In this document: positions 1,216-46,285 of the stretch, piece by piece | How the letters are laid out: each line of letters starts with the position of its first letter | Numbering within the stretch: the first letter of the stretch is position 1 | NCBI GenBank assembly: GCA_009779405.1 | Contig: WREI01000010.1 | Location: 1-51,439 of the forward strand | Length of the DNA: 51,439 nt | Source: Clostridiales bacterium | Lineage (GTDB): Bacteria; Bacillota; Clostridia; Christensenellales; CAG-138 | Reading direction: 5' to 3' | Notes under the pieces: generated by a model | Seen by the model: only the letters and a program-made list of their open reading frames with translations | Database searches by the model: none | What the model was told of the DNA's origin: nothing | Program-made: the position numbers and the translations under genes

Positions 1216-1334
1216 TGTTCAATGTTCAACGCGCAACGCACAATGGTTGTAGAAATGCTATGGCATTTCTAATTAAAAAGGGATGCCATCGGCATCCCTA
1301 CATTCATTGAACATTGCGCGTTGTGCATTGAGCG
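1214..1334. repeat. Composite MITE-like element A: degenerate TTCAATG/CGCAACG tandem arms in inverted orientation flanking two GTAG palindromes
   Basis: Left arm AATGTTCAATGTTCAACGCGCAACGCACAATG; inner GTAGAAATGCTATGGCATTTC (1249-1269) and GGGATGCCATCGGCATCCCTAC (1280-1301); right arm CATTGAACATTGCGCGTTGTGCATTGA (1305-1331). Confidence 0.75.
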
Positions 1335-2602: not shown

Positions 2603-2651
2603 GTAGGGGACGATTGCAATCGTCCCGCGTAGGGGCGGATAGTATCCGCCC
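2603..2651. repeat. Two tandem GTAG-type palindromes
   Basis: GTAGGGGACGATTGCAATCGTCCC (2603-2626) then GTAGGGGCGGATAGTATCCGCCC (2629-2651). Confidence 0.8.
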
Positions 2652-2676: not shown

Positions 2677-4743
2677 CTATTCCGTTTGCGGAGAGTAATA
2701 GTAGTTCCCCGTATCCCAAAGCAATGAGTCAAAGCCTGTGATTTGGGATTTGTCCGTGAAGCGGTTATTCCGAACGTCTAAAGATTGATACGACGCAGTG
2801 GGGCAGAGGGCGAGGGTGGTCAGTTGGCTGTAATTGCACCATAGCCATTCCAACGCGAGGTTATGGCTTAAATTTAACTCAGTAAAGGTGTTGTGGCCGC
2901 ACGAGAGAGATTTTAGCGCAGAATTATTGCTCACATCCAACGCAGTCATGAATGAATTTGAGGAAACGGAAAGCGCTTCTAATGCAAAATTGCTTCTGAG
3001 ATCTATTGCGACCAACTCCGTGTCGCAACACAAAAGCGCTTTCAACGCGAGATTGTTGCTTACATCCAGTTCCACCAGCGGGTTTGCTGTGCATTGCAAC
3101 CGTTTCAGCGCAAGATTCATGCGCAGGTCTATTTCCGTCAGCGCGTTGTTGGAGCATTCGAGCGTTTCGAGCGCAGGGGTTTGAGTCAGAACGAGCTCCG
3201 TCAACCGATTGTCTTCACAGTTGAGATATTCCAGCGCAGGATTATTGCTTACGTCTAACCCGGTCAGTCGGTTTTCATCGCAGGAAAGACGCCGTAATTC
3301 CGCAAGGCCGGCCACATTCAATACCCCGGAGAGGTTGTTGTTCCAAATATTCAGCACGACAACTCGCTTATTGCTCACATCCTCTGACCAATCGATATTG
3401 AATCCCCACTTCCTCGGAACATAGCTACCGTCAACGGGATCGGCCTTTGGCATGCTCCACCCGTTGTTATCAATGATTGCGTTGATCACGGCGATATCGC
3501 CGGGGTTATAGGTGCCGGCAACAGCATCTCCCCGCTGGGGATAATAATGGCATTCTCCCGTGTCCCATTTTGCGGGGTCAAAGCCCGTGATTTGGGCTTT
3601 ATCCGTGAAGTGGTTGTAGCGGACATCCATGCACCAATAAGGCGCGTCGGGACACAGTGAAAGAGCGCTGAGATTATTGAAGTCACAAGACAGGAATTCC
3701 AATGCAGCAAGCGCCGAAACATCCAGTTCAGTCAACAGATTCTCCGCGCAGCCAAGATCCTGCAAGGCGGGAAGGTCGAAAAGGCACAACTCCGCAAGTT
3801 GATTGTACGCGCAAGCAAGCTCCCGCAACATCGGAAACCCTGAAAGGGTCAACTCGGACAGATTGTTATCTTCGCAATAGATGCGGAACAAAGACGGAAG
3901 GTCGAAAAGCTCCAGTTCGGATATTTGGTTGTCGCAACAGTAAAGGTGACGCAGAAACGGAAGCCCAGAAATATGCAGCGCGCTCAGTCGATTGGCGTTG
4001 CAGAATACTGCTTCCAAAGCAAGAAGCCCGGAAAGCTCCAACTCTGTCAGTTGATTGTACGCGCAATCAAGTTCCCGCAAACTCGGAAGCCCGGAAAGGT
4101 TCAACTCTGTCAGCCGGTTACGGTTGCAGTAAAGCCACTCCAAAGCGGGAAGCCCGGAAAGATTCAGCTCTGTCAGTTGGTTGTCATTGCAGGAAAGCTC
4201 CTCCAAAGCGCTAAGACCAGATATATTCAACACACCCGTCAGCCCCGTTGACCAAAGATGCAAAGTTGTAACTCGCTTGTTAACAGTATCCCACGACCAA
4301 GCTACGTTCTGTTGCCACTCCTCCGGCACATAGGTACCATCTACGGGGTCGGCTTTTGGCAAATCCAACCCGTTGTTGTCGATCATTGTGTTGATCACGG
4401 CGATATCGCGGGGATTATAGAGCGGCAATGATTCCGCCCAGTCGGGGATGACCGTAAGGCCTGCCAAATGGCGTAGAACAAGAGCGGCATCGGCGACGGT
4501 GACGCCGCCCATTCCGTCGACGTTTGCGGCGGCAAGCTGCTCGGGACTGAGGGTGACAAGGCCCGTCAGATGGCGCAGAATCAGGGGCGCGTCGCTTGCG
4601 TCCAGCTTGCCGTCGCCATTTGCGTCGCCGGGTTTCAACGGCGCGCTTTCCGCAATTGTCGTAGGGGCGGATAATATCCGCCCGCCGAAGAGCAGGGATA
4701 TAATGAGGAACCAGGAGAATATACGGAGGATGCGTTTGTGCAT
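2677..4743 (-). CDS. Secreted dockerin / leucine-rich-repeat surface protein
   Basis: Start moved to internal ATG 4743 (MHKRILRIFSWFLIISLLFG); dockerin type I GDANGDGKLDASDAPLILRHLTGL; LRRs LTELNLSGLPALEWLYCNRNR; two tandem modules each starting with DIAVIN.(M/I)IDNNG...DPVDG. Confidence 0.85.
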   Translation of the reverse strand: MHKRILRIFSWFLIISLLFGGRILSAPTTIAESAPLKPGDANGDGKLDASDAPLILRHLTGLVTLSPEQLAAANVDGMGGVTVADAALVLRHLAGLTVIPDWAESLPLYNPRDIAVINTMIDNNGLDLPKADPVDGTYVPEEWQQNVAWSWDTVNKRVTTLHLWSTGLTGVLNISGLSALEELSCNDNQLTELNLSGLPALEWLYCNRNRLTELNLSGLPSLRELDCAYNQLTELELSGLLALEAVFCNANRLSALHISGLPFLRHLYCCDNQISELELFDLPSLFRIYCEDNNLSELTLSGFPMLRELACAYNQLAELCLFDLPALQDLGCAENLLTELDVSALAALEFLSCDFNNLSALSLCPDAPYWCMDVRYNHFTDKAQITGFDPAKWDTGECHYYPQRGDAVAGTYNPGDIAVINAIIDNNGWSMPKADPVDGSYVPRKWGFNIDWSEDVSNKRVVVLNIWNNNLSGVLNVAGLAELRRLSCDENRLTGLDVSNNPALEYLNCEDNRLTELVLTQTPALETLECSNNALTEIDLRMNLALKRLQCTANPLVELDVSNNLALKALLCCDTELVAIDLRSNFALEALSVSSNSFMTALDVSNNSALKSLSCGHNTFTELNLSHNLALEWLWCNYSQLTTLALCPTASYQSLDVRNNRFTDKSQITGFDSLLWDTGNYYYSPQTE
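4661..4683. repeat. GTAG-type palindrome inside the dockerin/LRR coding sequence
   Basis: GTAGGGGCGGATAATATCCGCCC; translated on the minus strand as GGRILSAPT. Confidence 0.8.
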
Positions 4744-4778
4744 AGGCGATCCTTTCAGTCTTTCGCGCATGGCTTATC

Positions 4779-4801
4779 GGGCGGATACTATCCGTCCCTA
4801 C
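4779..4801. repeat. GTAG-type palindrome (minus orientation) supplying the glgA stop codon
   Basis: GGGCGGATACTATCCGTCCCTAC; its CTA is the reverse complement of the glgA TAG stop. Confidence 0.75.
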
Positions 4802-6432
4802 GATTGCGGCACTTCCGGCATCGGCTTTTTCGCCGTGGAAGCGGTGGGTTTTTTCGCGGGGGTTGGTTCGGATTCTATCTCGGCGGGCGATGCATGCGTC
4901 GCCCCTACGGGTGCGATTTCCACGGCCGTCAATTCGATTTCCGTGGTCGGTTTTTTCCGCGACTTTTTGGGTTTCGGTGGTGGTGGCGGGGGTTCTATGC
5001 CGAGTATATCCTGATACAGCCGCAGATAGGCCTTGGCCGATGTGGTCCAGGAGAAATCGCAGGCCATGGCGCGCTGAACCAAGCGTTCCCACATCTCCTT
5101 GTCGCAATGGTAATACTCCACCGCCTCTTCCAGCGCGTATAGCATCTCGTGGGCGTTGTAGTTGCGGAAGGAGAAGCCGTTGCCGCTGTCCTCGAAGCGG
5201 TTGTAGGGCTGAATGCTGTCGCGCAGGCCGCCTGTTTCGCGGACGATGGGGATGGTGCCATAGCGCAGGGAGATCAATTGCGACAGCCCGCAGGGCTCGA
5301 ACTGCGAGGGCATCAGAAACATATCGCTCCCGGCATAGATGCGGTGCGCCAGACCCTCGTTCAGCTCCACGCGCGCGGCCACGCGGCCTGGGTATTGTGC
5401 CTGCGCATCGCGGATGAAGCGCTCATAGCGCGCATCGCCGTTGCCGAGGAAGGCGACCTGCACGTCGAGACGCATCAGGTCGTGCAGCACGCATTCCACC
5501 AAATCCAGCCCCTTTTGCGGGGTGAGGCGCGTAATCATGGAGATGAGCGGCGGCTCGTCGCGCGGCTCCAAACCCAGTTCCTCCTGCAAGCGGCGCTTCA
5601 ACAGAGTTTTGCCCATGATATTCTCCGCAGTGAAATGCGTGGAGAGGAAGCGGTCGTCGGCGGGGTTGTAGACAGCTGTATCGATGCCGTTCAATATGCC
5701 CGAGAGCACGTGCTGCCTGTGGCGCAGGAGCCCGTCCAAGCGTTCGCCGAAATATTCGCTGCGTATCTCCTCGGCATAGCTGGGACTGACCGTGCAGATG
5801 CGCGTCGCGAAGACCAGCCCGGCCTTCATAAACGAGAGCAGGCCATGGAATTCCAAGTTGTCCGGCGTGAAATAGCCACTGTTCAGGCCCAATAATGAAC
5901 CGATACGGTGCCAGGTGTAGAGCCCCTGATAGCGCAGGTTGTGGATGGAGAAGACGCTCTTGATGTCCCGCATCTTCATATCCCAGCAATATTGCTCGTG
6001 CAGCAGCACGGGTATCAGCCCCGCCTGCCAGTCGTTGCAGTGGAGGATGTCGGGGAAGAAGGCCAGCCGCGACAGGGCTTCCAGCACGGCGCGGCAATAG
6101 AACGCGAAGCGGAAACCGTCGTCCTCCTCGCCCGTATAGAGCTTGTCGCCGCCGAACACGGCGAGGTTGTCGACAAAATAATAGGTGACGCCGTTGTCGA
6201 CCACGGAGTCGATGCCGCACCAGAGCTGCTGGCTGCCCATCAGCACGGTGAATTCGCACTCGTGGTGCATGCGGTTGACCCAATAGCTGTCGATGATGCG
6301 ATATTTGGGCAGTATGACGCGCGCGTCCACACCCTCGCGCACCAGCGCCGCGGGCAGGGAGCCCAGCACATCGGCCAGCCCGCCTGTCTTGGCAAAAGGC
6401 ACGCATTCGCTGCCCGTGAAGAGGATTTTCAT
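4798..6432 (-). CDS. glgA: Glycogen synthase with low-complexity C-terminal extension
   Basis: MKILFTGSECVPFAKTGGLADVLGSLPAAL; ...SQFEPCGLSQLISLRYGTIPIVRETGGLRD; tail PPPPPPKPKKSRKKPTTEIELTAVEIAPVGATHASPAEIESEP. Confidence 0.95.
   Translation of the reverse strand: MKILFTGSECVPFAKTGGLADVLGSLPAALVREGVDARVILPKYRIIDSYWVNRMHHECEFTVLMGSQQLWCGIDSVVDNGVTYYFVDNLAVFGGDKLYTGEEDDGFRFAFYCRAVLEALSRLAFFPDILHCNDWQAGLIPVLLHEQYCWDMKMRDIKSVFSIHNLRYQGLYTWHRIGSLLGLNSGYFTPDNLEFHGLLSFMKAGLVFATRICTVSPSYAEEIRSEYFGERLDGLLRHRQHVLSGILNGIDTAVYNPADDRFLSTHFTAENIMGKTLLKRRLQEELGLEPRDEPPLISMITRLTPQKGLDLVECVLHDLMRLDVQVAFLGNGDARYERFIRDAQAQYPGRVAARVELNEGLAHRIYAGSDMFLMPSQFEPCGLSQLISLRYGTIPIVRETGGLRDSIQPYNRFEDSGNGFSFRNYNAHEMLYALEEAVEYYHCDKEMWERLVQRAMACDFSWTTSAKAYLRLYQDILGIEPPPPPPKPKKSRKKPTTEIELTAVEIAPVGATHASPAEIESEPTPAKKPTASTAKKPMPEVPQS
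4885..4908. repeat. GTAG-type palindrome inside the glgA 3' coding region
   Basis: GGGCGATGCATGCGTCGCCCCTAC; translated as VGATHASPA. Confidence 0.8.
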
Positions 6433-6494: not shown

Positions 6495-6772
6495 CTATTT
6501 GAACAAATCGCTGTGGCTGCCTGTGCGGGCAAGCACAAGCAACAGTTCGCCTTTTTCTATGCGATAAACAAGCAACCAATCCGGTCTGATATGGCATTCG
6601 CGATATCCGTGCCAGTTTCCCGTCAATGCATGATCCCGAAAGCTTGAAGCGAGCGTTTGCCCCGCTGCAAGCGCACGGATACAATCATCCATAAAGCGCA
6701 TCCTATGCCCGCGCTTCCCGGCAAGCGCATAATCCTTCTTGAACTGTGACAGAAAAGTATGATGCTTTGCAT
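6495..6772 (-). CDS. YafQ-type mRNA interferase toxin; start region apparently frameshifted
   Basis: Frame reads ...KHHTFLSQFKKDYALAGKRGHRMRFMDDCIRALAAGQTLASSFRDHALTGNWHGYRECHIRPDWLLVYRIEKGELLLVLARTGSHSDLFK, but the ATG directly after the antitoxin stop (6772) is in another frame. Confidence 0.75.
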
Positions 6773-7042
6773 TTATGCTTTCAGTTCCTTCAATGCGTCT
6801 TCCACATCCGAATAGCGTCGCACGCTTTTATCGTGTAGGATGGCTTCTGCTTCTTCGAATGCTGCCAAAGTTGTCGCGTTCGGTATCGCCGAAATCTCAA
6901 AGGGTATGCGGCTTTCCCGCACCGTAGCCTTTGCAAAAACCGTTACCGCCGTGGAAAAGCTCATGCCAAATTCACCGCAGAGCCATTCCATCTGTTTCTT
7001 CAACTGGTCATCCATGCGGATGCTTACTGTCGTCTGCGCCAT
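6773..7042 (-). CDS. RelB/DinJ-family antitoxin
   Basis: MAQTTVSIRMDDQLKKQMEWLCGEFGMSFSTAVTVFAKATVRESRIPFEIS; adjacent to YafQ-like toxin; start placed at ATG 7042 rather than TTG 7048. Confidence 0.9.
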   Translation of the reverse strand: MAQTTVSIRMDDQLKKQMEWLCGEFGMSFSTAVTVFAKATVRESRIPFEISAIPNATTLAAFEEAEAILHDKSVRRYSDVEDALKELKA

Positions 7043-7074
7043 ATACAATACATCCTTTCACATTTGATAGGTAT

Positions 7075-11520: not shown

Positions 11521-11624
11521 GTAGTTATCAAACGTCAGACGTCAGTCATCAGTTTCTGCAAGCGGAGCCACAAAAAAGGCATCCCGCAAAGGGATGCCTA
11601 CCATCAACTGACGTCTGATAACTA
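11521..11624. repeat. Composite element F: AGTTATCA(G)ACGTCAG arms in inverted orientation with one palindrome
   Basis: AGTTATCAAACGTCAGACGTCAGTCATCAG ... GGCATCCCGCAAAGGGATGCCTAC (11578-11601) ... CAACTGACGTCTGATAACTA. Confidence 0.75.
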
Positions 11625-26899: not shown

Positions 26900-26923
26900 G
26901 GGCGCAATATATTGCACCCCTAC
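26900..26923. repeat. GTAG-type palindrome
   Basis: GGGCGCAATATATTGCACCCCTAC. Confidence 0.7.
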
Positions 26924-42725: not shown

Positions 42726-42749
42726 GTAGGGGCGAGGCATGCCTCGCCC
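42726..42749. repeat. GTAG-type palindrome
   Basis: GTAGGGGCGAGGCATGCCTCGCCC, identical to 46233-46256. Confidence 0.85.
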
Positions 42750-45058: not shown

Positions 45059-46285
45059 ATGGATATGGGTATAAAATTGGCAGGCATCCCGCGCGACGCG
45101 GATTACCGCTACGAGGTGATCTTCCGCGCCTATAAATGGGACCCACAGGTGGGTGACAGCAATACCATCGCCCGGCACGCGCTGCTGATGGATGCGGATA
45201 CCGCGCGGCAATTGGAAGTTTGGGCGGAGCAGTTGTCCGAAGAAACCATGCGCATGGAAGAAGCGCTGATCGACAGGCCCGCCCTATATAAAAAGCTGGG
45301 ATTCCCGAAGGAAACGCGCAAGGCCTTGGAGAAAATGACGGGCTATGGCCGCGATAAAAACATACGCCTGATGCGCTTCGACTTCCACCCGACAACGGCG
45401 GGCTGGGCCATCTCGGAGGTGAACAGCGATGTGCCGGGCGGACTGGCCGAGGCCTCCTCCCTGCCCGTTCTCGCGGCCCGCTATTTCGAGGGCTATGCGC
45501 CGGCCAAAAACACGGCGGACGCGCTGCTGCAAGCGTTTCGGGACAAGATCCCGGCGGGCGGCAGCATCGCCTTTGTGCACGCAACCTCCTATGCCGACGA
45601 CCGCCAGGTGATGCAGTTTCTGGGCGACAGCGTAAGCGCCGCGGGCTATCGCGCCCTCTACGCCGCGCCGGATCATATTGTATGGGAGGGCAACAAGGCG
45701 CAGGGTATAGACGCAATCGTCCGCTTTTATCCCTTGGAATGGCTGGCGAATCTGCCGAAGAAGTCGGCGTGGACCAAATATTTCAACAGCGAAACCCCCG
45801 CCTGCAACCACCCCGCCGCCATGCTCACGCAGTCCAAACGCCTGCCCCTCGTCTGGGACGAATTGGGCGTCGAGCTCCCCGCGTGGAAGACCCTGCTGCC
45901 GCAGACGGGAGACCCAAAATCGGTCAAACAACCAAGCGAGGACTGGGTGCTGAAACCGGCCCTGGGCAGGGTGGGGGAGGGCATCGCAATCCGCGGCACC
46001 ATGCCCGAAAAAGAACGGCGGCAAATTGCAAAAGCCGCGCGCAGAGAGCCCCAAAACTGGGTCGCGCAGCGCAAATTTGAAAGCTTGCCGTTGACGTCGG
46101 AAACAGGGGAAATCTATCACCTCTGCGTCGGCGTATTCACCGTAGACGGAAAAAGCGCGGGCTTCTACGGCAGAATCAACCCCTATCCGCGCATGGACGC
46201 CAACGCGAAGGATATAGCGATATTAATTAATTGTAGGGGCGAGGCATGCCTCGCCCGCCCGAATACAGAAAGGACCCCAAAATGA
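45059..46285 (+). CDS. Glutathionylspermidine-synthase-like ATP-grasp protein, C-terminus extended through a palindromic repeat
   Basis: YEVIFRAYKWDPQVGDSNTIARHALLM; IRLMRFDFHPTTAGWAISEVNSDVPGG; WVLKPALGRVGEGI; tail INCRGEACLARPNTERTPK. Confidence 0.8.
   Translation: MDMGIKLAGIPRDADYRYEVIFRAYKWDPQVGDSNTIARHALLMDADTARQLEVWAEQLSEETMRMEEALIDRPALYKKLGFPKETRKALEKMTGYGRDKNIRLMRFDFHPTTAGWAISEVNSDVPGGLAEASSLPVLAARYFEGYAPAKNTADALLQAFRDKIPAGGSIAFVHATSYADDRQVMQFLGDSVSAAGYRALYAAPDHIVWEGNKAQGIDAIVRFYPLEWLANLPKKSAWTKYFNSETPACNHPAAMLTQSKRLPLVWDELGVELPAWKTLLPQTGDPKSVKQPSEDWVLKPALGRVGEGIAIRGTMPEKERRQIAKAARREPQNWVAQRKFESLPLTSETGEIYHLCVGVFTVDGKSAGFYGRINPYPRMDANAKDIAILINCRGEACLARPNTERTPK
46233..46256. repeat. 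GTAG-type palindrome inside the ATP-grasp 3' coding region
   Basis: GTAGGGGCGAGGCATGCCTCGCCC. Confidence 0.85.

Follow-up and report, generated by a model that had tools for sequence, protein, structure and literature searches.

REPs are already known to occur within RAYT transposase genes and within other open reading frames. Intragenic REPs, and REPs whose TAG supplies a stop codon, were described by Di Nocera et al. 2013 (PMC3733652), and the main text of Quentin et al. 2018 (PMC6006769) reports in-frame REPs in genes of RAYT subclass 2.4, the subclass considered here. The former survey also cautions that many N-terminal REPs may really be 5' untranslated, and it places the REP-like palindromic elements of Rickettsia (RPEs) in a CGTC superfamily with no transposase association. 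In Stenotrophomonas maltophilia, the REP is cleaved in vitro by its TnpAREP/RAYT (PMC8266576). A limited literature search found no report of REPs together with a RAYT in Firmicutes.

The window analyzed here is a whole stretch of 51,439 nucleotides from a Clostridiales bacterium (contig WREI01000010.1). A 23-base palindrome, GTAGGGGCGGATAATATCCGCCC, is present on its plus strand at 4661-4683, where the original prediction had placed it, and consists of GTAG, a stem GGGCGGAT, the loop AAT and the complementary stem ATCCGCCC. The stem is perfect (8/8 pairs), and as single-stranded DNA the element folds with z = -3.2. The open reading frame on the minus strand crosses it with the codons GGG CGG ATA TTA TCC GCC CCT AC(G), read as GRILSAPT, and one further G (GGC) precedes this peptide to give GGRILSAPT. 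These residues, codons 21-28 of a gene encoding a dockerin/LRR protein, follow the hydrophobic core FSWFLIISLLFG and precede a Pfam Dockerin_1 domain, so that coordinates, frame and domain assignment all agree with the proposal of a palindrome lodged between signal core and dockerin. The product carries a signal peptide (identified by eye), the Dockerin_1 domain and LRRs. Translation more likely starts at ATG 4743, which has an AAAGGA Shine-Dalgarno sequence, than at ATG 4770, and the element is in frame from either start. By the -3/-1 rule, a rule of thumb, signal cleavage likely occurs after TIA and before ES. The features of the window are collected in Table 1.

Table 1. GTAG-REPs of the window and the genes that they touch
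Feature	Position	Strand	Remarks
GTAG-REP variant GTAGGGATGCCGATGGCATCCC	1280..1301	-	intergenic
GTAG-REP GTAGGGGACGATTGCAATCGTCCC	2603..2626	+	intergenic, 3' side of dockerin/LRR gene
GTAG-REP core type A, loop AGT	2629..2651	+	tandem with REP 2603..2626
Dockerin/LRR secreted protein gene	2677..4743	-	688 aa from ATG 4743; alternative ATG 4770
Signal-peptide coding region MHKRILRIFSWFLIISLLFG-[GRILSAPT]-TIA	4651..4743	-	cleavage after TIA inferred
GTAG-REP core type A	4661..4683	+	tag 4661-4664, stem 4665-4672, loop 4673-4675, stem 4676-4683
GTAG-REP GTAGGGACGGATAGTATCCGCCC	4779..4801	-	its TAG (4800-4798) is the glgA stop codon
Glycogen synthase (GlgA) gene	4798..6432	-	one in-frame REP, terminated by another
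GTAG-REP core type C	4885..4908	-	in non-conserved C-terminal glgA tail, read as VGATHASP
GTAG-REP core type B GTAGGGGTGCAATATATTGCGCCC	26900..26923	-	
GTAG-REP core type C GAGGCATGCCTC	42726..42749	+	intergenic
GTAG-REP core type C	46233..46256	+	last codons of GSP_synth-like gene (45059-46285)

The core of the palindrome, GGGCGGATNNNATCCGCCC, was found as 75 exact palindromes in the 2.5-Mb genome, compared to 0 for the reversed pattern. With this copy number and the open frame, the claim that a dispersed palindromic element is read in frame in the signal-peptide region was borne out. Within the window, allowing up to three mismatches, six strand-matches (three sites, both strands) were obtained against 0 in 100 shuffles, and a genome search for GTAGGG..CCC returned 108 and 111 matches on the two strands against 13 and 19 in the reversed control. 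GTAG was the commonest of the 256 tetranucleotides directly 5' of a hairpin (62 occurrences in a 400-kb sample), followed by TAGG and AGGG, both of which overlap GTAG and, for the most part, probably reflect these same elements with the register shifted. Several core types coexist, with the common ends GTAGGG...CCC: type A (GGATNNNATCC), type B (GCGATAWATCGC / GCAATATATTGC), type C (GAGGCATGCCTC / GACGCATGCGTC) and rarer ones. The palindrome at 4661-4683 is therefore a GTAG-tagged REP, one of a few hundred copies: an unpaired GTAG directly precedes a short stem-loop, the elements are dispersed at high copy number (75 exact copies of core A in the genome and, in 800 kb, 90 elements with GTAGGG) and mostly extragenic, away from divergent promoters, and they are linked to RAYT genes. 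Further families of GTAG hairpins lacking the GGG end were also noticed (GTAGAAATGCC.., GTAGGAATCGC.., GTAGGCGTTTGCG.., GTAGGCATCCC..), at L028 15663, L040 8517, L034 17273 and L042 3363 and at 11579-11601 of the window.

The nearest neighbor of the element, the REP at 4779-4801, is inverted with respect to it, with the tags outside and 95 bp between the two. No repeat of this spacer was detected in an 800-kb sample, and a REPIN unit spanning 4661-4801 was rejected on that ground. A MITE with terminal inverted repeats and target duplication (unit of 70-300 bp, repeats of 15-30 bp) was likewise discarded, the unit being 23-24 nt long and the neighboring 95-bp spacer unique in the sample. Elsewhere in the window, two small minus-strand ORFs at 6495-7048 resemble, by eye, a pair formed by a RelB/DinJ antitoxin and a YafQ-like toxin.

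Placement was analyzed in the same 800-kb sample of genome stretches, 83% of which is coding. Genes were called with a simple home-made script, so that counts near gene edges are approximate: among 90 elements, 66 were intergenic, 17 overlapped a gene edge, mostly with the TAG of the REP serving as stop codon, and only 7 were intragenic (binomial p ~1e-55 for 7/90). For the 72 elements outside genes and with a gene on both sides, 51 had unidirectional, 18 convergent and 3 divergent flanking genes, compared to available lengths of 60, 24 and 24 kb, respectively (p ~5e-5). Because the majority of copies are intergenic, the element at 4661-4683 is an exception, and a special coding role for the element was not supported, since most copies avoid genes.

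Linkage to a transposase was evident in relatives at the family level, where RAYTs L065 (genome G011) and L071 (G035) are flanked by identical core A, with RAYT L068 (G002) flanked by another core. A profile built from the RAYTs of relatives identified two full RAYTs in the present genome, L076 and L075, which are associated with cores B and C, respectively. One, at C9, sits between core C REPs and has its TAG stop within the GTAG of the 3' REP; the other, at C83, is bordered on one side by a core B REP. No core A RAYT was found in this genome by the profile search (assembly 92.7% complete, 116 contigs), perhaps because of an assembly gap or a loss. The profile of the RAYT group matches the E. 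coli TnpAREP (PDB 4er8, E = 1.8e-10), and the alignment contains the features of subclass 2.4, namely HuH and Y motifs with NH.H, WQ and YI..NP. Three genes of this genome with Pfam Y1_Tnp domains (L005-L007), our first RAYT candidates, have no GTAG elements nearby; L006 and L007 were rejected as mobilizers and look like subclass 2.1/TIRYT. These two (L006 1114-1869; L007 from ~901 onward) are longer Y1 transposases without GTAG REPs, and their GGGGAC-rich ends resemble, by eye, the GGGGWSAS TIR motif.

The RAYT genes themselves contain these elements. We collected 101 related RAYTs, 80 of them from named GTDB genomes, mostly Oscillospiraceae and other Clostridia, and 52 of the 101 carry exact in-frame GTAG elements at two fixed sites. 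The first, about 41 codons before MPNHxH, is occupied in 37 RAYTs and nearly always read in the sense direction (VGA....P); the second, 12-21 codons after MPNHxH, is occupied in 49 and nearly always read antisense (often GR...APT). The peptide GRILSAPT is of the same type as this second site (for instance, GRMISAPT in L111). The first site may correspond to the 8-aa insertion of subclass 2.4 that the main text of Quentin et al. (PMC6006769) leaves unexplained. Once near-duplicates were removed, 27/33 genes had two cores matching to within 2 bases (shuffled mean 1.8, maximum 8), and the internal core matched the flanking one in 13/14 (shuffled mean 1.6, maximum 9), although these shuffles ignore relatedness and do not amount to probabilities. 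Inverted in-frame REP pairs with a matched core, before and after HuH, can be seen in L110-L189 and L082-L109.

The original prediction took the palindrome for an insertion that adds a peptide, and this view was not supported. In paralogues from the same genome that lack the palindrome, the distance from hydrophobic core to dockerin domain differs by only 0-2 residues (gaps in BLAST alignments), and the export-signal stretch comprises 11-12 codons compared to 13 with the element. The paralogues thus retain the slot in the export signal and not the residues GRILSAPT, which suggests that the element at 4661-4683 stands in for native residues, either by direct replacement or by an insertion with a compensating deletion. 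Orthologues of the dockerin/LRR gene were sought in the genome contigs and none was found; an empty site was also sought by synteny in G001, a genome of the same genus, where ParB/ParA-like genes follow glgA (ORFs read by eye).

Other in-gene copies behave in a similar manner, with a net length change of 0 to +3 codons instead of +8 in the signal peptide, CysS and a NadD-HD protein when compared to paralogues or orthologues. In CysS (L035 18921-18943), the REP-encoded VGADTIRP costs 1-3 residues relative to orthologues that are 62-68% identical, and the net change in the NadD-HD protein (L206) is about +1 relative to its closest orthologues. The CysS peptide is located between the catalytic and DALR domains. 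In GlgA and the GSP_synth-like protein, the REP occupies the tail past the conserved domains. An ABC-F ATPase of the present genome (G000, L209 3733-3755) also contains VGADTIRP, and the ABC-F gene of a sister species (L232 ~1396, G001) carries, at the equivalent position and in the same frame, a REP with another core, GTAGGGGCGATCTGTGATCGCCC, read as VGAICDRP; an apparent exchange of the core in place would account for this pair from two species of one genus. In-gene REPs thus appear to stand in for native residues at tolerant places, as judged from three loop regions in which the alignment is uncertain.

Taken together, we consider it very likely that a GTAG-tagged REP, mobilized by a RAYT of subclass 2.4, came to lie in the signal peptide in place of about 8 native residues, probably with near-neutral effect. 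By homology, the RAYT would bind the single-stranded hairpin with its 5' GTAG tag and drive its copying round the chromosome. Selection would then clear most coding sites, so that most copies would last only between genes, chiefly at gene 3' ends, and in-gene copies would survive at tolerant sites that keep an open frame, such as linkers, tails and loops. One such copy would have settled downstream of the hydrophobic core and ahead of the cleavage site, in the place of about 8 native residues. If cleavage occurs after TIA, GRILSAPT is removed with the signal peptide, and the element is therefore probably close to neutral. No adaptive role is indicated.

Four other explanations were weighed. 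The element could be a regulatory mRNA hairpin affecting the stability or translation of the dockerin/LRR gene, with its own translation incidental. The hairpin is strong, and REPs are generally found in likely transcribed regions at gene 3' ends (PMC3733652), but this one sits about 60 nt inside the coding region, away from both the start codon and the 3' end, the 5' region of the mRNA shows no unusual folding (z = -1.6), and paralogues lack the element, all of which makes a regulatory function unlikely. We consider it quite improbable that translation starts downstream, for example at the TTG just before the dockerin domain, leaving the element 5' untranslated: this TTG, in LKPGDANGDG, has a weak purine-rich stretch upstream, yet a complete signal peptide with an ATG and AAAGGA precedes it in frame, an arrangement shared by at least five paralogues. 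Dockerin proteins, moreover, are normally secreted.

The analogy with RPEs drawn in the original prediction survives only as a loose likeness to in-frame elements; kinship is not supported, as the tag is GTAG and not CGTC and the sequence flanks RAYT genes in relatives. A protein-coding palindrome of the Rickettsia kind, kept for adding new peptides, would fit a dispersed palindrome with several in-frame copies in unrelated proteins, and a REP that is open in both phase-0 readings (VGA....P and GR...APT). Such an element is nevertheless very improbable here, given the tag, the low intragenic count (7/90), the linkage to RAYTs, and in-gene copies that replace residues and lengthen the proteins by 0 to +3 codons only. 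An origin in place, by chance or codon bias, has nothing in its favor beyond GC-rich coding DNA and is practically negligible in view of an exact family match with 75 copies, 0 in the control and 0 in the shuffles.

Beyond the reading of the element as a REP mobilized by a RAYT, the less expected observations are the inverted pair with matched cores, a replacement that hardly changes the length and the apparent ABC-F core swap. They lead us to a broader model, which we offer tentatively as a possibility. Clostridial RAYTs of subclass 2.4 would harbor two in-frame copies of their own hairpin, inverted relative to each other and placed in two fixed loops, with cores that track the flanking REPs of the species, and cores in host genes would be exchangeable in place. 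REPs would spread in coding DNA by overwriting (conversion or template switching) and not by simple insertion, and selection on the transposase would hold the coding-compatible frame GTAGGGGC...GCCC (VGA....P / GR...APT). Matched inverted pairs in RAYT genes and in-place core exchange, if true, would provide a direct test of how the recognition sequence of a REP family changes. For annotators, there is a warning in such peptides as VGADTIRP, VGATHASP and GRILSAPT: in the proteins of these Clostridia, they represent translated mobile-DNA debris and not domains. The linkage described here connects one REP family of Clostridia with its transposase.

Compared to known systems, REPtron Sm of S. maltophilia (PMC8266576) is alike in its 23-nt REP composed of GTAG, an 8-bp perfect palindrome and a 3-nt loop, and differs in its group 3 RAYT and in its stem sequence. 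As with REPINs/BIMEs, inverted REP pairs with the tags outside occur in this genome (spacers of 20-47 bp), but the 4661/4779 pair, with its longer unrepeated spacer, is probably no REPIN unit. RPEs share the palindromic, dispersed character and the in-frame copies in unrelated proteins, and are set apart by their CGTC tag, by peptides that are often longer and by frequent location within genes, with no transposase known for them. Much closer is the GTAG-REP superfamily (PMC3733652), with its unpaired 5' GTAG, stem of 6-13 bp, short loop and many copies, of which most are flanked by unidirectional or convergent genes and a minority are in ORFs, and with a GTAG that often provides a TAG stop codon; Firmicutes/Bacillota is not among the phyla which that survey lists, and the present family comprises several coexisting core types, every one with the ends GTAGGG...CCC. 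RAYT subclass 2.4, equivalent to Bertels group 4, has, according to the main text of Quentin et al. (PMC6006769), the same motifs (NH[IVL]H, WQ and YI..NP), long REPs whose stem base is formed by three G-C pairs, in-frame REPs in the transposase gene after HuH, and an 8-residue insertion elsewhere. In that text, the insertions fall "generally" between HuH and Y and the 8-aa insertion is not called a REP, whereas the genes described here often hold two opposite REPs, before and after HuH, with matched cores.
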